Shown here piece after piece: positions 35,233-42,108 of a stretch of 64,000 bases of DNA; position 1 is the first letter of the stretch, and the number at the start of each line of letters is the position of its first letter. The translations under genes and the position numbers were made by a program. The stretch comes from Bradyrhizobium sp. CCBAU 51765 (GTDB lineage: Bacteria; Pseudomonadota; Alphaproteobacteria; Rhizobiales; Xanthobacteraceae). The notes below the pieces were generated by a model, which searched no databases, was not told the origin of the DNA, and saw only the letters and a program-made list of their open reading frames with translations. The DNA is taken from NCBI RefSeq assembly GCF_015291725.1, contig NZ_CP030038.1, forward strand, positions 1,105,001 through 1,169,000, in the 5' to 3' direction.

Positions 35233-35844
35233 TTGTCAGAACCTTCCCCGAAAGACCCGGCGCCTGCCGAGGACGCAGACTCCGAGCCGCGGCCGGGGCG
35301 TGTGCGCAAGCCGATCGGCTGGTCGACCATCATCATTGCGGTCCTGGTGACGGTGAGCGCGGGACTGGTCTGGCGGCGTGACGGTGCCGACGGCGTCCTC
35401 GACATTCTCACCCATGACCTGTCGCTGTTCGGCGGCATCCTGCCGCGCGTGCTGGCCGGTTGCCTGCTCGGCGCCTTCATCTCCGAGATCCTGCCTCACG
35501 AGAAAGTCTCGCGCTCGCTGGGGCCGAAATCCGGCCTGATGGGCCTTCTGATCGGCACCGCCTTCGGCGCGATCCTGCCGGGCGGCCCCTTCACCGCCTA
35601 TCCCGTGGCGAGCGCGCTGCTCGCGGTCGGCGCCGATTTCGGCGCCACCATCGCCATGGTCGTGAGCTGGACCCTGATCGGCTACGGCCGGGCGGTCGCC
35701 TGGGAGATCCCGATCATGGGCACCGATTTCACGCTGTGGCGGATCATCATCTCGCTGCCGCTGCCGGTGCTGGCGGGTGCCCTCGGCCGCTTCGTCTATG
35801 TCAGGCTCTATCCGAAGCCACTCGCGAAGGACGACGAGAATTGA
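35233..35844 (+). CDS. half-size permease (ArsP/DUF318-like), first subunit
   Basis: A 203-residue membrane protein with a charged N-terminus and about four to five hydrophobic segments. It contains ILPGGPFTAYPVASAL and SWTLIGYGRAVAWEIPIMG, which recur in modified form in the next protein. The initiation codon appears to be TTG at 35233. The stop overlaps the next start (TTGA). Full-length ArsP-type permeases have two such halves in one chain, so the two products probably assemble as a heterodimer. The substrate is unknown; the position just upstream of the zinc operon suggests a metal or metalloid. Confidence 0.7.
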   Translation: MSEPSPKDPAPAEDADSEPRPGRVRKPIGWSTIIIAVLVTVSAGLVWRRDGADGVLDILTHDLSLFGGILPRVLAGCLLGAFISEILPHEKVSRSLGPKSGLMGLLIGTAFGAILPGGPFTAYPVASALLAVGADFGATIAMVVSWTLIGYGRAVAWEIPIMGTDFTLWRIIISLPLPVLAGALGRFVYVRLYPKPLAKDDEN

Positions 35845-36341
35845 GCGCGGCGCTTCTGATCGACATCCTGTTGTGGGGCTCTGTGCTGGGCGTCGGCCTG
35901 ATCGCTTTCCGCCGCGGCCCTCCCGTGTTCATGGCCTCGCTCCGCGAAGGCTCGATGGACTTCATCAACATCGTGCCGCGGATCGCGCTGGGTGTGATCG
36001 GCTCCGGCTACATCGCCGCCATCATCCCGCAGGAGGTGATCACCGGATGGCTGGGCCCGGACAGCGGCTGGCTCGGGGTCGCAACTGCCGTGGTGGCCGG
36101 TGCGGCCACGCCCGGTGGTCCCGTGGTTGGCTTCTCCATCGGCACCGTGGCGCTGAAGTCCGGCGGCGGGATGCCCCAGGTGGTCGCCTATGTCGTCGCC
36201 TGGGCACTGTTCGCCTTTCAGCGCGTGATCTTGTGGGAAATCCCGTTCATGCCGGCCCGTTTCGTCTGGTTCCGCTGCGCCGTGTCCGTGCCATTCCCGT
36301 TCGTGGCCGCCGCCATCGCGATGGTGATCGGCAAGCCCTGA
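35841..36341 (+). CDS. half-size permease (ArsP/DUF318-like), second subunit
   Basis: A 166-residue membrane protein starting at TTG 35841, overlapping the previous stop by 3 nt. It has three to four hydrophobic segments and the motifs GAATPGGPVVGFSIG and AWALFAFQRVILWEIPFMP, parallel to the first subunit. The Cys residues found in many ArsP-type permeases are replaced by Gly in both proteins. A Zur-like site lies directly downstream, so this pair is not itself within that operon. Confidence 0.7.
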   Translation: MSAALLIDILLWGSVLGVGLIAFRRGPPVFMASLREGSMDFINIVPRIALGVIGSGYIAAIIPQEVITGWLGPDSGWLGVATAVVAGAATPGGPVVGFSIGTVALKSGGGMPQVVAYVVAWALFAFQRVILWEIPFMPARFVWFRCAVSVPFPFVAAAIAMVIGKP

Positions 36342-36360
36342 GCCCGGCGTGGACAGCGGG

Positions 36361-36379
36361 AATGTTATAATATAACGTT
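36361..36379 (+). promoter_or_regulatory. Zur-type operator overlapping a -10 element
   Basis: The perfect palindrome GTTATAATATAAC (36364-36376) lies within AATGTTATAATATAACGTT. It matches the core of alphaproteobacterial Zur boxes. A TATAAT -10 is embedded at 36366-36371. Repressor binding would block the promoter of the His-rich gene and the zinc importer. Zur itself is not in the window. Confidence 0.78.
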
Positions 36380-36385
36380 CTCGGC

Positions 36386-36622
36386 ATGGTTCCCGTCGCG
36401 TCCCGCGCCCAGCATCATGACCATGTCCAGGGCCACGCCCTTGGCCACGGGCATTCGCATGGGCGCGACCACAGCCATGCCCATGTCCATGATGCGACGT
36501 CTCCGCATCCGGCCCAGGCGGCGCGCTGGTCGATCCTGCGCATGACCGTGGCAGGCCGCCTCGCGGCCGCGGCCGCCGTTTGTGCCGTGCTCTGGGGCAT
36601 CGTTTTTCTGGCGATGAGGTGA
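36386..36622 (+). CDS. His-rich single-span membrane microprotein
   Basis: A 78-residue protein. Residues 10-35 contain a dense His cluster (QHHDHVQGHALGHGHSHGRD and HSHAHVHD), followed by one hydrophobic helix (LAAAAAVCAVLWGIVFLAM) at the C-terminus. It begins only 10 nt after the Zur box with no clear Shine-Dalgarno sequence, so the message has a very short leader or is leaderless. It ends 2 nt before znuC. A metal-buffering or zinc-delivery role at the membrane is inferred from composition and context; I know no named family. Confidence 0.7.
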   Translation: MVPVASRAQHHDHVQGHALGHGHSHGRDHSHAHVHDATSPHPAQAARWSILRMTVAGRLAAAAAVCAVLWGIVFLAMR

Positions 36623-36624
36623 GG

Positions 36625-37380
36625 ATGGCGGCGCTGCATTTCCACAACGTCACGCTGGGCTATGACCGTCATCCGGCGGTGCACCATCTCAGCGGCGAGG
36701 TCGCCCCGGGTGCGCTTGTCGCGGTGATCGGCCCGAACGGCGCCGGCAAGTCGACCCTGCTGCGCGGCATCGTCGGCATCCTCAAGCCGCTCGCGGGCAG
36801 CATCCATCTCGGTGGTCTCGATGCCCGCGACATCGCCTATCTGCCGCAGAGCGTGGAGATCGACCGCAGCTTCCCGATCTCGGTGTTCGATTTCGTCGGC
36901 ACCGGGTTGTGGCGCGCGACCGGTCTGTTCGGCGGAATCGGCAGGGCTGCCCGCGAGAAGATCCTCGGCGCGATCGCGTCCGTCGGCCTCAATGGATTCG
37001 AGAACCGCCCGATCGGCACGCTCTCGGGCGGCCAGATGCAGCGTGTGCTGTTCGCGCGCGTGCTGCTCCAGGACGCGAGCCTGATCGTGCTCGACGAGCC
37101 CTTCAACGCCATCGACACCAAGACAACGGCCGATCTGCTTGCGCTGGTGAAACGATGGCATGGCGAAGGCCGCACCGTGCTCGCCGCGCTGCATGACATG
37201 GAGATGGTGCGCAACCATTTCAGCGACACGCTGGTGCTGGCGCGCGGCCCCGTGGCATGGGGCCCGACCGCGGAGGTGCTGACGCCGGAAAACCTGATCG
37301 TCGCGATGCGGATGTGCGAGGCCTTCGACGACAGCGCCGCGGCCTGCGCGGCCGATGATGTCAGCTCGCGGGCGGCTTGA
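36625..37380 (+). CDS. znuC: zinc ABC transporter ATP-binding protein
   Basis: A 251-residue ABC ATPase: Walker A GPNGAGKST (about residues 38-46), signature LSGGQMQR, Walker B LIVLDEPF, and the switch His in LHD. It resembles the manganese/zinc/iron (MZT) importer ATPases. GAGGTGAGG precedes the ATG at 36625. It is the first gene of a C-B-A ordered importer under the upstream Zur box. Confidence 0.9.
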   Translation: MAALHFHNVTLGYDRHPAVHHLSGEVAPGALVAVIGPNGAGKSTLLRGIVGILKPLAGSIHLGGLDARDIAYLPQSVEIDRSFPISVFDFVGTGLWRATGLFGGIGRAAREKILGAIASVGLNGFENRPIGTLSGGQMQRVLFARVLLQDASLIVLDEPFNAIDTKTTADLLALVKRWHGEGRTVLAALHDMEMVRNHFSDTLVLARGPVAWGPTAEVLTPENLIVAMRMCEAFDDSAAACAADDVSSRAA

Positions 37381-37386
37381 TGTCCG

Positions 37387-38256
37387 ATGATCTATGACGC
37401 GCTGATCGGTCCGTTCACCGAATTCGAGTTCATGCGGCGGGCGCTCGCCGCCGTGATCGCGCTGGCGCTGGCGGGCGCGCCGATCGGCGTATTCCTGATG
37501 CTGCGACGGATGAGCCTCGTCGGCGATGCCATGGCGCACGCGATTCTGCCCGGCGCGGCCGTCGGATTCCTGCTCTCGGGCCTCAGTCTGTTCGCGATGA
37601 CGGCCGGCGGCCTGATCGCCGGTTTCGCCGTTGCGATCCTCGCCGGCGTGGTCGCCCGTTCGACCGGGCTGAAGGAGGACGCGTCGCTTGCGACTTTCTA
37701 TCTGGCATCGCTTGCACTCGGCGTCACCATCGTCTCGATCAAGGGCACGAATATCGACCTGCTGCACGTGCTGTTCGGCAACATCCTCGCAATGGACGAT
37801 CAGACGCTGCTGGTGGTCGCCTTCAATGCCACGGTGACGCTGCTGGTGCTCGCGGTGATCTACCGCCCGCTGGTGATCGAGAGCGTTGATCCCTTGTTTT
37901 TGCGAACCGTGAGCCGCGCCGGCGGCCCCGCGCATCTCGCCTTCCTCGCGCTCGTCGTCATCAACCTCGTCAACGGCTTTCAGGCGCTCGGCACGCTGCT
38001 TGCGGTCGGACTCATGATCCTGCCCGCGGGCACTGCCCGGTTCTGGTCGCGCGATCTGACCACGATGATCTGCATCGCAGTCGTCGCTGCCGCGGTCTCG
38101 GGCTATGCGGGGCTCGTGCTGTCGTTCCAGACCCGTGTGCCGTCAGGCCCCGCCATCATCCTCGTGGCGACGATGCTCTACATCGTCTCCGTCCTGTTCG
38201 GCCGCGTCGGCGGCATCGTCCGGCAACTGTTTCCCGGCCGGCACCTGGAAGCATGA
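37387..38256 (+). CDS. znuB: zinc ABC transporter permease
   Basis: A 289-residue inner-membrane permease of the ABC-3 family with about eight to nine hydrophobic segments and the cytoplasmic motif GDAMAHAILPGAAVGFLL that contacts the ATPase. It starts 6 nt after znuC and overlaps the binding-protein gene by 4 nt (ATGA), so all three are coupled. Confidence 0.9.
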   Translation: MIYDALIGPFTEFEFMRRALAAVIALALAGAPIGVFLMLRRMSLVGDAMAHAILPGAAVGFLLSGLSLFAMTAGGLIAGFAVAILAGVVARSTGLKEDASLATFYLASLALGVTIVSIKGTNIDLLHVLFGNILAMDDQTLLVVAFNATVTLLVLAVIYRPLVIESVDPLFLRTVSRAGGPAHLAFLALVVINLVNGFQALGTLLAVGLMILPAGTARFWSRDLTTMICIAVVAAAVSGYAGLVLSFQTRVPSGPAIILVATMLYIVSVLFGRVGGIVRQLFPGRHLEA

Positions 38257-39122
38257 CGATGCGGCTCATCCTGTTTTGTGCGCTGTTGCTGATCGCCGCG
38301 CCGCTGCATGCCGCGGAGCGGCTCAACGTCGTCGCGAGCTTCTCGATCCTCGGCGATTTCGTCCGCAACATCGGTGGTGACCGCATCAATCTGACGACGC
38401 TGGTCGGCGCGGACGGCGACGTCCACGTCTACACGCCGGCCCCCGCCGACGCGAAGCGGGTCGCGGATGCAAGGCTCGTCATCGTCAATGGACTCGGCCT
38501 CGAGGGCTGGCTGCCGCGTCTCGTCCAATCCTCCGGCAGCAAGGCAACGGTCGTCGTTGCCAGTGGCGGCATCGCGCCTCTGAAGCTCGGCTCAGCCGCG
38601 GATCCCCACGCCTGGCAGTCTGTCCCGAACGCCAGGATCTATGTGACCGACATCGCCAATGCATTGGCCGCCGCCGACCCGGCTGAGGCGGACTTCTTCC
38701 GCAGCCAGGCCAAGGCCTATCTGGAAAAGCTCGAAACGCTGGACCGAGATGTCCGCGACGCCGTGGCGAAGATCCCGCCGGACCGGCGCAAGGTGATCTC
38801 CACCCACGACGCTTTCGGCTATTTTTCCGCCGAGTACGGTATCCGGTTCATCGCCCCCCTGGGCGTCTCCACCGAAACCGAACCCAGCGCGCGCGACATC
38901 GCGGCCATCATCAGCCAGATCAAGGCCCAGAAAATTCCGGCCGTGTTCCTGGAAAATATCAGCGACGACCGCCTGATCCGCCGGATCGCGGCCGAGAGCG
39001 GCGCCAGGGTCGGCGGGACCCTGATTTCGGACAGTTTGACCGGCGAAAAGGGGCCTGCACCCACTTACATTGACATGGTCAGGCACAATATAAAGGCCCT
39101 GACCAGCGCGCTTGACCATTAG
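38253..39122 (+). CDS. znuA: zinc/metal ABC transporter substrate-binding protein
   Basis: A 289-residue periplasmic cluster A-I binding protein with signal peptide (LILFCALLLIAAPLHA). Likely metal ligands are His in GDVHVY, His in ADPHAW, His in STHDAFGY and Asp in LISDSL. The His/Asp-rich flexible loop of canonical ZnuA proteins is absent, a feature shared with AztC-type proteins. Zinc is favoured by the Zur box; manganese is the main alternative for this family. Confidence 0.85.
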   Translation: MTMRLILFCALLLIAAPLHAAERLNVVASFSILGDFVRNIGGDRINLTTLVGADGDVHVYTPAPADAKRVADARLVIVNGLGLEGWLPRLVQSSGSKATVVVASGGIAPLKLGSAADPHAWQSVPNARIYVTDIANALAAADPAEADFFRSQAKAYLEKLETLDRDVRDAVAKIPPDRRKVISTHDAFGYFSAEYGIRFIAPLGVSTETEPSARDIAAIISQIKAQKIPAVFLENISDDRLIRRIAAESGARVGGTLISDSLTGEKGPAPTYIDMVRHNIKALTSALDH

Positions 39123-39176
39123 GGCAGGGGCCACCCCGCCTCGCGTCGCGCGACAAGCCCGAAGTCCGGAGTTGTT

Positions 39177-40223
39177 ATGTCTGAAGCGACCTCCCAAAAG
39201 ATTCCCGTGACTGTCCTGACCGGCTATCTCGGAGCCGGCAAGACCACGCTCCTCAACCGCATCCTGTCCGAAAACCACGGCAAGAAATACGCCGTCATCG
39301 TCAACGAATTCGGCGAAATCGGCATCGACAACGACCTCATCATCGGCGCCGATGAGGAAGTGTTCGAGATGAACAATGGCTGCATCTGCTGCACCGTGCG
39401 CGGCGACCTGGTCCGCATCATGGACGGACTGATGAAGCGCAAGGGCAAGTTCGACGCCATCATTGTCGAGACCACGGGTCTCGCCGATCCGGCGCCGGTC
39501 GCCCAGACATTCTTCGTCGACGAGGACGTGCAGAAGAACGCACGGCTCGACGCGGTGGTCACGGTCGCCGACGCAAAGTGGCTGTCCGACCGGCTCAAGG
39601 ATGCACCCGAGGCCAAGAACCAGATCGCCTTTGCCGACGTGATCGTCCTGAACAAGACCGACCTCGTCTCCAAGGGCGAGCTCGCCGAGGTCGAGGCCCG
39701 CATTCGCGGCATCAACCCCTATGCGAAGCTTCACCGCACCGAGCGCTGCTCGGTCGCCCTGGCCGACGTGCTCGACCGCGGCGCGTTCGACCTCGACCGC
39801 ATCCTCGACATCGAGCCGGACTTCCTGGAGGCCGACGATCATGACCACGACCATGATCATCACCATCACGGCCACGACCATCACCACCATGATCACGGCC
39901 ACGGCCTGAAGCACTATCACGACGAGGAGATGCAGTCGCTCTCGCTCAAGACCGACAAGCCGCTCGATCCGAATGTGTTCATGCCCTGGCTCCAGAACCT
40001 GGTGCAGGTCGAGGGCGGCAAGATCCTGCGCTCCAAGGGCATCCTCGCCTTCCACGACGACGACGACCGCTACGTCTTCCAGGGCGTCCACATGATGCTG
40101 GAGGGCGACCACCAGCGGAAGTGGAAGGAGGGTGAGCCGCGCGAGAGCCGCCTCGTCTTCATCGGCCGCGAATTGCCGGAAGAGGCCATCCGCAAGGGTT
40201 TCGAGAGCTGCATCGTCTCGTGA
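39177..40223 (+). CDS. COG0523 (CobW/ZigA-like) zinc GTPase with His-rich insert
   Basis: A 348-residue G3E GTPase: Walker A GYLGAGKTTLL near residue 15, metal-binding CxCC motif in NNGCICCTVRGD, and NKTDL guanine-specificity motif. A His/Asp-rich stretch lies near residues 221-245, before the C-terminal CobW domain (FQGVHMMLEGDH). Such proteins hand zinc to target apoproteins under starvation. It starts 54 nt after znuA with GGAG upstream. The stop overlaps the start of the WD40 gene by one nucleotide, so the two products are made together. Confidence 0.9.
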   Translation: MSEATSQKIPVTVLTGYLGAGKTTLLNRILSENHGKKYAVIVNEFGEIGIDNDLIIGADEEVFEMNNGCICCTVRGDLVRIMDGLMKRKGKFDAIIVETTGLADPAPVAQTFFVDEDVQKNARLDAVVTVADAKWLSDRLKDAPEAKNQIAFADVIVLNKTDLVSKGELAEVEARIRGINPYAKLHRTERCSVALADVLDRGAFDLDRILDIEPDFLEADDHDHDHDHHHHGHDHHHHDHGHGLKHYHDEEMQSLSLKTDKPLDPNVFMPWLQNLVQVEGGKILRSKGILAFHDDDDRYVFQGVHMMLEGDHQRKWKEGEPRESRLVFIGRELPEEAIRKGFESCIVS

Positions 40224-41242
40224 TGAAAGAGTTCACGCCGCCTCCCGATTCCGGCTCGATCGTCTCCGTCACCGACCGCGTCAAGCCTGTTACGCTCGGC
40301 ATGGCGGTGACCTCGGTGCATTTCCTTGGCCCCCGCGCTGCTTTCGTCGGTGGCGAGGAGAATGTTGCGTTCGTCGATGGCAAAGGCGAGATCGCCACGG
40401 TTGCCGTGCACAGCGGCGGCATTCTCTCGACCGCTTCCGACGGCAAGCGCCTCGTGATGGGCGGCGACGACGGCAAGGTCGTCTCGCTCGACGCCAAGGG
40501 CGAGGTGACGCTGCTCGCCACCGACCCGAAGCGGCGCTGGATCGATGCGGTGGCGCTGCACGCCGACGGTGCCTTCGCCTGGTCGGCCGGCAAGACGGCC
40601 ACCGTCAAGAGCGGCAAGGCCGAGGAGAAGTCGCTCGAGGTGCCCTCGACCGTCGGCGGCCTTGCCTTCGCGCCGAAGGGCCTGCGGCTCGCGATCGCGC
40701 ATTACAACGGCGTGACGCTGTGGTTTCCGAACATGGCGGGATCAGCCGAATTCCTGCCCTGGGCCGGTTCGCATCATGGCGTCAGCTTCAGCCCGGACAA
40801 CAAATTCCTGGTCACCGCGATGCACGAGCCGGCGCTGCATGGCTGGCGGCTGGCCGACAACAGGCACATGCGCATGACCGGCTACCCCGGCCGGGTCCGC
40901 TCGATGTCCTGGAGCGCGGGCGGCAAGGGGCTCGCGACCTCGGGGGCCGACACCGTCATCGTATGGCCGTTCGGCAGCAAGGACGGCCCGATGGGCAAGG
41001 AGCCCGCAATACTCGCCCCGCTGCAGGCGCGCGTGTCGGTCGTCGCCTGCCATCCGAAGAATGATATCCTCGCCGCCGGCTACAGCGACGGCACGGTGCT
41101 GATGGTGCGCCTGGAGGATGGCGCCGAGATCCTGGTCCGCCGCAACGGCACGCCCCCTGTCGCCGCGATCGGCTGGAATGCGAAGGGCACGCTGCTGGCT
41201 TTCGCCGATGAAAATGGGGATGGCGGGCTTCTCGAGCTTTAA
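40223..41242 (+). CDS. cytosolic WD40-repeat protein
   Basis: A 339-residue beta-propeller protein, about seven blades. Repeats with WD-like ends include GLAFAPKGLRLAIAHYNGVTLWF, GVSFSPDNKFLVTA and SMSWSAGGKGLATSGADTVIVW. No signal peptide is visible. The gene is fused to the COG0523 GTPase by a TGATG overlap. Co-occurrence suggests a partner or chaperone for zinc transfer; periplasmic AztD is a precedent for a propeller metallochaperone, although it is a different protein in another compartment. Molecular function is unproven. Confidence 0.8.
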   Translation: MKEFTPPPDSGSIVSVTDRVKPVTLGMAVTSVHFLGPRAAFVGGEENVAFVDGKGEIATVAVHSGGILSTASDGKRLVMGGDDGKVVSLDAKGEVTLLATDPKRRWIDAVALHADGAFAWSAGKTATVKSGKAEEKSLEVPSTVGGLAFAPKGLRLAIAHYNGVTLWFPNMAGSAEFLPWAGSHHGVSFSPDNKFLVTAMHEPALHGWRLADNRHMRMTGYPGRVRSMSWSAGGKGLATSGADTVIVWPFGSKDGPMGKEPAILAPLQARVSVVACHPKNDILAAGYSDGTVLMVRLEDGAEILVRRNGTPPVAAIGWNAKGTLLAFADENGDGGLLEL

Positions 41243-41260
41243 TTCGTCATGGTTCCCGCC

Positions 41261-41363
41261 GTAGGGTGGGCAAAAGGCGCCCTTGCGCCGTACCCACCAT
41301 CTCTCTCAGCGAAGCAAAAGCGGTGGGCACGTCGCGCGAAGAACGCGCCTTTGCCCACCCTAC
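41261..41363. repeat. interspersed palindromic repeat, GTAGGGTGGGCAAA family
   Basis: Starts GTAGGGTGGGCAAAAGGCGC and ends TTTGCCCACCCTAC, between the WD40 and mgtC-like genes. Confidence 0.86.
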
Positions 41364-41391
41364 CGCATCTCTCAAACGGCGGCGCGGACAC

Positions 41392-42108
41392 ATGCGGTTT
41401 CTGACGACCTTCCAGCTTGCCGACTTCGGCGACACGCTGATCAGCCTGACCACGGCCTTCGTGCTGGGAACGCTGATCGGCGCCGAGCGGCAGTATCGCC
41501 AGCGCACCGCGGGCCTGCGCACCAACGTGCTGGTCGCGGTCGGCGCGGCCGCCTTCGTCGATCTCGCCATGCAGCTGGACGGCGCCGATGGCGCGGTGCG
41601 GGTGATCGCCTATGTCGTCTCCGGCATCGGCTTCCTGGGCGCCGGCGTCATCATGAAGCAGGGCATGGACGTGCGCGGCCTCAACACCGCGGCGACGCTG
41701 TGGGCCTCGGCTGCGGTCGGCTCCTGCGCCGGCGCCGACATGATCGCGCAGGCGGCCGCCCTGACCGTGTTCGTCATCGCCGGCAACACCATGCTGCGCC
41801 CGCTGGTCAATGCCATCAATCGCATTCCCCTGAACGAGAAGGCGCTGGAGGCGAGCTACTATTTCAAGCTCGCTGTTGCGGCCGACGCTCTTCCGGATAT
41901 GCGCGACCGGCTCGTCGAGAAGCTCGAGGCCGCGAAATATTCGGTGGCCGATATCGACGTGGCCGAAATCGGCGAGGACGTTCTCGAGATCGCCGCACGG
42001 CTGGTTGCGACCGCGGTCGATCCGAACGAGCTGAACGCGGTGGCGACAGATCTCCAGCATTTGCCGGGCGTGCGCCACGCCACCTGGGAGGTCAGCACGA
42101 CCGATTGA
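41392..42108 (+). CDS. MgtC/SapB family membrane protein
   Basis: A 238-residue protein. The N-terminal MgtC domain has four to five hydrophobic helices with the family motifs LGTLIGAERQYRQRTAGLRTN and GIGFLGAGVIMKQG and GLNTAATLWASAAVG. The C-terminal 80 residues form a soluble alpha/beta domain. Members modulate magnesium or phosphate homeostasis and the F-ATPase in several bacteria. The start at 41392 excludes the upstream repeat. Confidence 0.88.
   Translation: MRFLTTFQLADFGDTLISLTTAFVLGTLIGAERQYRQRTAGLRTNVLVAVGAAAFVDLAMQLDGADGAVRVIAYVVSGIGFLGAGVIMKQGMDVRGLNTAATLWASAAVGSCAGADMIAQAAALTVFVIAGNTMLRPLVNAINRIPLNEKALEASYYFKLAVAADALPDMRDRLVEKLEAAKYSVADIDVAEIGEDVLEIAARLVATAVDPNELNAVATDLQHLPGVRHATWEVSTTD

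Follow-up and report, generated by a model that had tools for sequence, protein, structure and literature searches.

This study concerns a short gene of Bradyrhizobium sp. CCBAU 51765, the first of an apparent zinc-starvation operon, which encodes a 78-residue His-rich protein with one predicted membrane helix (hereafter the microprotein). The gene lies in a stretch of 64,000 nucleotides (nt), termed the window throughout, which corresponds to G000:C1:1105001-1169000 of an 8.4 Mb genome available as a single contig. A first-pass annotation, made from the sequence and its open reading frames (ORFs), had read here an operon of a zinc ATP-binding cassette (ABC) importer and a COG0523 GTPase, and this reading was confirmed by the ORFs and by family matches. 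The features of the operon and its promoter are listed below by position in the window; pLDDT denotes the predicted local distance difference test score of the structure model.

36350..36355, + strand: predicted -35 hexamer, TGGACA, conserved in place and spacing in 34 Bradyrhizobium loci
36363-36377, no strand assigned: Zur-type box, TGTTATAATATAACG, which also holds TGTTATAAT, a possible extended -10
36373..36378, + strand: predicted -10, TAACGT (TAACR in 34/34 loci; the following T, outside the box, in 30/34)
36386..36622, + strand: His-rich one-helix microprotein of 78 residues, ATG at 36386, stop at 36620-36622
36386..36523, + strand: variable N-terminal His-rich tail, residues 1-46 with 12 His, predicted to be cytoplasmic; no helix in the model, pLDDT 59-76
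36524..36619, + strand: conserved core, residues 47-78, with R58 (36557-36559) and W70 (36593-36595) of an R-x11-W pattern
36617..36622, + strand: AGGTGA, which comprises the final codon of the microprotein gene and its stop and resembles a Shine-Dalgarno site for aztA (predicted translational coupling)
36625..37380, + strand: aztA-like ATPase gene (NCBIfam AztA, 215.1 bits, cut-off 220)
37387..38256, + strand: aztB-like permease gene (NCBIfam AztB, 257.6 bits, cut-off 280)
38253..39122, + strand: aztC-like zinc-binding protein gene, overlapping aztB (NCBIfam AztC, 300.1 bits, cut-off 350)
39177..40223, + strand: gene for a COG0523 (CobW) GTPase that also carries a His-rich stretch, 54 nt after aztC
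40220..41242, + strand: WD40-repeat protein gene, the start of which overlaps the COG0523 gene

The ORF as first read, with a dense His cluster, one membrane helix and an ATPase gene at a distance of 2 nt, was borne out, the ATG of aztA (36625) standing 2 nt past the stop of the microprotein. A search within the genus found a match in 35/35 other genomes. Altogether, 36 Bradyrhizobium loci including that of the window were considered, of which 34 were parsed automatically, one was read by eye, and one was cut by a contig end. Across the Bradyrhizobium loci, the third codon position was the most variable (entropy of 0.46/0.39/0.89 by codon position), and the mean pairwise ratio of nonsynonymous to synonymous substitution (dN/dS) came to ~0.23 over the His region and ~0.22 over the helix core. 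The 78-codon frame is, by these measures, protein-coding and under purifying selection. The 34 Bradyrhizobium forms have 8-18 His each and, in common, HPAQ, WSILRM, and a helix with a C-terminal AMR or VMR. The terminal AGG codon was found in 34/34 loci; as Met-Arg-stop reads ATGAGGTGA, a Shine-Dalgarno-like site for aztA, its invariance may reflect a constraint on the DNA rather than on the protein. The codons for WSIL (TGG TCG ATC CTG, 36527-36538) were invariant in the 34 loci, synonymous sites included, while TCG and CTG account for 40% of the Ser codons and 57% of the Leu codons in aztA, respectively; L035 (L numbers denote individual loci) departs in one WSIL codon. An extra constraint at the level of DNA or RNA is possible for this run.

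AlphaFold2 modeled a single helix at residues 55-77 (block-mean pLDDT 93-98) preceded by an uncertain coil. The net charge of the flanks was higher on the N-terminal side of the helix in 120 of the 129 microprotein-bearing loci described below, equal in 9, and opposite in 0, which points to an N-terminus in the cytoplasm. As the first-pass annotation had supposed, the microprotein belongs to no named family at the cut-offs of Pfam or NCBIfam. Pfam returned 0 families at an expectation value (E) of 0.01, be it CbtB, ZrgA or any other, and a fragment of a DmeF/CDF protein was rejected, as the NCBIfam match of residues 8-75 had an E of 0.065 and 12.6 of 250 bits. We found no description of the microprotein in the open-licence literature on Zur, AztABCD, small ABC subunits and Bradyrhizobium leaderless genes.

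The importer genes had been labeled znuC-znuB-znuA, a name that the family searches do not uphold. The scores for ZnuA, ZnuB and ZnuC in NCBIfam were 65.7 of 268, 88.6 of 284, and 98.4 of 306 bits, respectively, and we rejected the ZnuABC identity. By the ranking of NCBIfam models and by the matches in the PDB, the importer is instead AztABC/ZniCBA-like. AztA, AztB and AztC were the top-ranked models for the three genes, and since each scored below its curated cut-off, we use the name 'AztABC-like'. The best PDB matches of the binding protein were 5kzj, 5w56/5w57, and 8svc, so that AztC and ZniA are its closest relatives of known structure; in PMC12183173, 5W57 is given as AztC and 8SVC as ZniA. 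The AztB-like permease was the only ABC-3 permease found in the genome. No match to AztD was found in the window at an E of 0.001, and a genome search at the same E, which was run without a positive control, was likewise empty.

The predicted promoter of the operon is overlapped by the Zur-type box TGTTATAATATAACG. The box is the sole place in the window at up to two mismatches, where shuffled sequences are expected to give 0.01, and 12-14 of its 14 scored positions were matched in 34/34 parsed Bradyrhizobium loci. In the whole genome, three box places were found at up to one mismatch, one of which is that of the microprotein operon. These three close sites have the look expected of a Zur regulon. 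Of the two others, G000:C1:5558710 (L038) lies upstream of a second COG0523 gene, ZigA-like, and G000:C1:6456517 (L039) lies ahead of two ORFs, one small and secreted-looking and the other TonB-receptor-like; these genes were named by eye. At up to two mismatches, the box counts in the genome (5 and 5) did not exceed those of a reversed-pattern control (5 and 4), and only the close sites are therefore meaningful. The palindrome claimed at first holds for the 13-mer GTTATAATATAAC, which is perfect around the centre, but the surrounding 21-mer has, by eye, one mismatched pair. Likewise, the ATG at 36386 is 8 nt past the 15-mer, not 10 nt from the box as had been stated, and this distance was 7-8 nt in 33/34 Bradyrhizobium loci, the remaining one being a case in which an earlier TTG was picked by the script.

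The TATAAT noted within the box is present but need not be the -10, as the pattern conserved across the genus is T(G/A/C)GAC(A/T)-17 nt-TAACR, with TGTTATAAT as an extended -10 alternative. The -35 place read TGGACA in 19, TGGACT in 7, TAGACT in 6, TAGACA in 1, and TCGACA in 1 of the 34 loci, and its spacing to TAACR was 17 nt in 34/34. Under either choice of the -10, the mRNA is predicted to start 0-8 nt before the ATG and would be leaderless or nearly so. For B. japonicum, PMC4842269 describes 320 start sites at 0-10 nt ahead of a start codon and TGnTA as a feature of leaderless promoters. From the box and its place we infer that the operon is under Zur control in Bradyrhizobium sp. CCBAU 51765. 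There are five Fur-family genes in the genome, and the one at C1:8333983-8334321, which shares 40% identity over 102 residues with the Fur-family gene adjoining the microprotein gene in L152, is plausibly Zur. In L124, L132, L134, L152, L155, L159, L163, L166, and L201, the microprotein gene is immediately preceded by a Fur-family (Zur-like) gene of the same strand.

Initial searches suggested that the microprotein was restricted to the genus, and this idea was overturned by profile searches. A profile of 18 Bradyrhizobium sequences found matches in 176/296 genomes and 33/47 genera of the same family at an E of 1e-4, and a profile of 32 sequences in 72/397 genomes of the same order. The class loci were picked via AztA (70/289 genomes including that of the window), and their nearby ORFs were scored with the helix core alone. 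We read with their flanks 40 of the 176 family matches, 20 of the 72 order matches, 40 of the 69 class matches (own genome excluded), and 14 of the 26 matches beyond the class. The microprotein gene directly preceded aztA in 40/40 fetched family loci and 20/20 fetched order loci, both sets having been picked via the microprotein itself, and 39/40 of the family loci matched the box in 9 or more of its 14 scored positions. The search for loci picked via AztA is the fairer test. Among 1833 ORFs of 29 aztA loci, the 22 best scores all belonged to + strand ORFs that ended 2-91 nt before the aztA match, where the distance was taken to the point at which the BLAST match begins rather than to an established start codon. 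Scored with a class-wide core profile, 40/40 fetched AztA-picked class loci had such an ORF, four of them weakly (E 1-2), and the microprotein was found in 14/14 fetched AztA-picked loci beyond the class. Its bearers include Skermanella rosea (hypothetical protein WP_203101353.1), Azospirillum lipoferum, Rhizobium, Kushneria, Chelatococcus caeni, and Mesorhizobium sp. B2-7-1. The R and the W of the core were present in 58/58 training rows, and R-x11-W in 128/129 positive loci, with L179 as the exception. With R58 and W70 in a core directly upstream of aztA, the protein of the window falls within this AztAB-linked one-helix family. The conservation and synteny with the importer ATPase gene that the first pass had proposed to check were found across relatives.

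The association appeared specific to one kind of importer. When 80 ABC-ATPase loci were scanned, 4/4 AztA orthologs had the microprotein, while in none of the 76 other loci, 24 of them with an ABC-3 permease, was it found directly before the ATPase gene, even at an E of 20. We counted 148 loci across the phylum (repeat fetches and most Bradyrhizobium loci were omitted, 6 of the 36 being used). The microprotein lay just upstream of aztA in 129, AztD was found within the fetched stretch in 7, neither in 12, and both in 0. A locus was taken as positive at an E of up to 2.5, and 127/129 had an E of 0.01 or less, with L223 at 0.012 and L150 at 1.7. No AztD above 80 bits was found in the fetched stretches of the 129 microprotein loci, of which 109 reach at least 3 kb past the start of aztA. 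In the AztA phylogeny, the 7 AztD loci and 7 of the 12 loci with neither formed one clade with a support of 100 and a branch of 0.61; in these latter 7 of the 14 rows no AztD was seen within the fetched stretch, and it may lie outside. Since the AztD clade is nested within the microprotein-bearing AztA sequences, a single replacement or loss is the simplest history.

The helix core was retained over this whole range, and the His cluster was not. We regarded a tail as His-rich if 5 or more of the 45 residues that precede the core were His. Such tails were found in 6/6 Bradyrhizobium loci, 35/41 loci of the same family, 16/29 of the order, 6/35 of the class, 1/14 beyond the class, and 0/4 plasmid loci. 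Three Rhizobium proteins of 42 residues each have a single His, located inside the helix, and no tail cluster. The frame and the His cluster are kept in related genomes, so that the lack of conservation named in the first-pass annotation as refuting its idea was not observed. In the wider family, the His cluster is a lineage feature added to a conserved helix. The idea that the tail replaces a missing His loop of AztC was rejected, as no relation between the two was found (25/25/20/20 for the 90 loci whose loop could be read).

Altogether, we consider that the 78-residue protein is the His-rich Bradyrhizobium form of an unannotated one-helix protein that probably serves as a small subunit of the AztAB importer. 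This reading fits better than a stand-alone metal buffer, because the helix and its place are constant and linked to one kind of importer while the tail varies. In the mechanism we propose, Zur loaded with zinc would cover the promoter and keep the operon silent. Under zinc scarcity, transcription would begin at or near the ATG, and the microprotein would be made first, its translation coupled to that of AztA through the shared AGGTGA. The C-terminal helix, with a near-invariant Arg at the predicted inner face of the membrane and a Trp 12 residues further on, may dock onto AztB and stabilize or adjust its assembly with AztA, and the N-terminal tail would be placed on the cytoplasmic side, next to AztA. 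In the Bradyrhizobium lineage, the His cluster could catch the zinc leaving AztB, which might then be handed over, perhaps to the COG0523 GTPase that the operon also encodes. The contact with AztB, the binding of zinc, and its hand-over are what we infer from sequence and model. A broader proposal, which we put forward tentatively and at somewhat less than even odds, is that AztAB-type importers across Pseudomonadota have an ancestral one-helix subunit that escaped annotation because it is short, that AztD replaced it once, and that in lineages such as Bradyrhizobium the tail became a His-rich element that receives or gates zinc at the exit of the importer.

Several observations weigh against the subunit reading or its extensions. 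The class-wide profile was trained on 23 of the 40 class loci in which it was applied, and of the 17 untrained loci, 13 were recovered at an E of 0.004 or less and 4 at an E of 1-2. Among 19 further AztA-picked loci (some of them repeats), 13 had the microprotein and 6 did not, and further loci of a Rhizobium-like family (f24) were divided into 3/6 with and 3/6 without it; all 9 of these microprotein-less loci are members of the AztD clade or repeats of its rows. L150 counts as positive only at an E of 1.7. Five loci outside the AztD clade scored as lacking the microprotein, namely L147, L176, L178, L189, and L190, of which the last four hold weak candidates. L147, on a plasmid of Bradyrhizobium sp. 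155, is a second aztABC-like operon with an AztA ~46% identical, and no microprotein or AztD was seen in the stretch read. The mutual exclusion of the microprotein and AztD is a single event in the tree and hence weak evidence for a functional exchange. The link between a His-rich tail and a COG0523 gene in the operon, counted on 109 of the 129 loci, was strong when all usable loci were pooled (p=5e-8) and still present when the own family was left out (p=0.003). It fell to p=0.033 when each family was given a single vote, and it vanished (p=0.57) in the outside-family loci found via AztA alone, so that the tail appears only weakly tied to the COG0523 gene. Adjacency and co-loss suggest a subunit and do not prove one.

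The His-rich tail itself invites the reading, offered in the first-pass annotation, of a zinc buffer or delivery factor, in which the membrane merely anchors a cytoplasmic trap that takes zinc from the importer to COG0523 or other clients. The 8-18 His of the 34 Bradyrhizobium forms, the His-rich tails in 35/41 same-family and 16/29 same-order loci, a dN/dS of 0.23 in the His region, and a COG0523 gene that follows on the same strand, in the window as in most family loci, are all in its favor. As the essence of the protein it is not supported by the comparison across the wider family, as at least 5 tail His were found in just 6/35 class loci and 1/14 beyond-class loci although the helix and the gene order persist, the three Rhizobium proteins have their single His in the helix, and the tail-COG0523 link is weak after control. 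Because His-poor forms hold the same place before the same importer genes, a role common to the whole family cannot depend on the cluster. We thus regard the buffer as an unlikely account of the protein as a whole, while buffering or delivery is likely an added function of the tail in the Bradyrhizobium lineage.

The anatomy and position that speak for a subunit would equally suit a zinc-sensing brake, the helix of which binds AztB and the zinc-loaded tail of which slows transport, giving a feedback faster than that of Zur; the tail is predicted on the AztA side, as such a brake would have it. Nevertheless, beyond the order most loci have a tail poor in His, so that a zinc brake is not the general role, and we hold this reading to be improbable. 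Finally, the short ORF might chiefly bring ribosomes to aztA by coupling or as a leader peptide, with the peptide itself mattering little. The 2 nt gap and the AGGTGA overlap in the window, the short spacing in most loci, and the Ser-Ile-Leu run that is invariant in Bradyrhizobium at synonymous positions too are compatible with a device of this kind, but an Arg and a Trp at a fixed spacing phylum-wide, a membrane helix, and purifying selection at the protein level make it very improbable. Compared with these alternatives, a small subunit of the AztAB importer is the account we retain.

In the prevailing view, zinc ABC importers consist of three parts and at most a periplasmic helper. If our reading is correct, a fourth part, kept with one kind of importer phylum-wide and missing where AztD appears, would alter how these importers are reconstituted, modeled, and mutated, and any aztABC/zniCBA construct that omits the upstream ORF may be incomplete. 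In Bradyrhizobium sp. CCBAU 51765, which belongs to a nitrogen-fixing genus, the microprotein sits in what is apparently the only ABC-3-type zinc importer of the genome. Its His-rich forms would offer a direct handle on the reception of zinc at the cytoplasmic side, a little-known step.

As for the neighboring genes, the COG0523 GTPase gene, with a His/Asp-rich insert, and the overlapping WD40 gene (39177-41242, + strand) stand after the importer genes in the majority of the 40 family loci and also in Skermanella. We rejected the WD40 protein as AztD: its best 60 of 121 PDB matches are ordinary WD40 proteins with no AztD among them, and the window holds no AztD match. Just upstream of the operon (35233-36341, + strand), there are two adjacent half-length ArsP_1 (PF03773) permease genes, the second of which scores below the family cut-off, and ArsP_1 matches of both halves also precede the operon in L053, L054, L069, and L073. 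The last ORF of the region first described (41392-42108, + strand) encodes a putative membrane protein that, by eye, resembles the MgtC/SapB type.

Small one-helix proteins are familiar from other membrane complexes. KdpF, CydX, AcrZ, and the LptC helix each contribute one short helix that packs onto a large membrane complex and is encoded alongside it, and it is by this description and not by sequence that we liken the microprotein to them. No small one-helix subunit of this kind is known for the cluster A-I metal ABC importers. His-rich segments for transition metals occur in CbtB, where they lie at the membrane, and in UreE and ZIP proteins. HypB and UreG also carry His stretches, as noted in PMC2770081. 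The His cluster of the microprotein resembles those of these five, and the protein itself has no Pfam match at an E of 0.01.

The closest comparisons are with importers of the same kind. AztABC(D) of Paracoccus denitrificans (PMC7463823, PMC6689063, PMC7731109) has a homologous ATPase, permease, and binding protein, and its regulation by Zur under zinc starvation is described in PMC5387054. The window differs in that its scores lie below the AztABC cut-offs, in that no AztD match was found in the window or genome (E 0.001, the genome search having been run without a positive control), and in having the microprotein, which is absent from 7/7 AztD-bearing loci. ZniCBA of R. leguminosarum is an importer of the same kind and, according to PMC12183173, is regulated by zinc and Zur, which lends independent experimental support to the regulation proposed here. 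Its active promoter region extends from 258 to 88 base pairs (bp) ahead of the first ATG, and zniC is preceded at 153 bp by a Zur motif. In the available part of that paper, no mention of a 42-codon ORF was found. In three f24 loci, the box ends 153-155 nt before the ATG of the ATPase gene, and a 42-codon ORF fills the gap, with its stop overlapping that ATG. A 42-residue homolog is recorded from R. leguminosarum as a hypothetical protein (P0132), the comparison being with these loci and this record rather than with strain UPM791 itself. The Rhizobium loci thus resemble the window in having a homolog between the box and the ATPase gene, and differ from it in that this homolog has no tail His cluster. 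R. leguminosarum also has a second importer, ZnuABC, as stated in PMC12183173, whereas in the genome of the window the permease encoded downstream of the microprotein is the only one of the ABC-3 type found.

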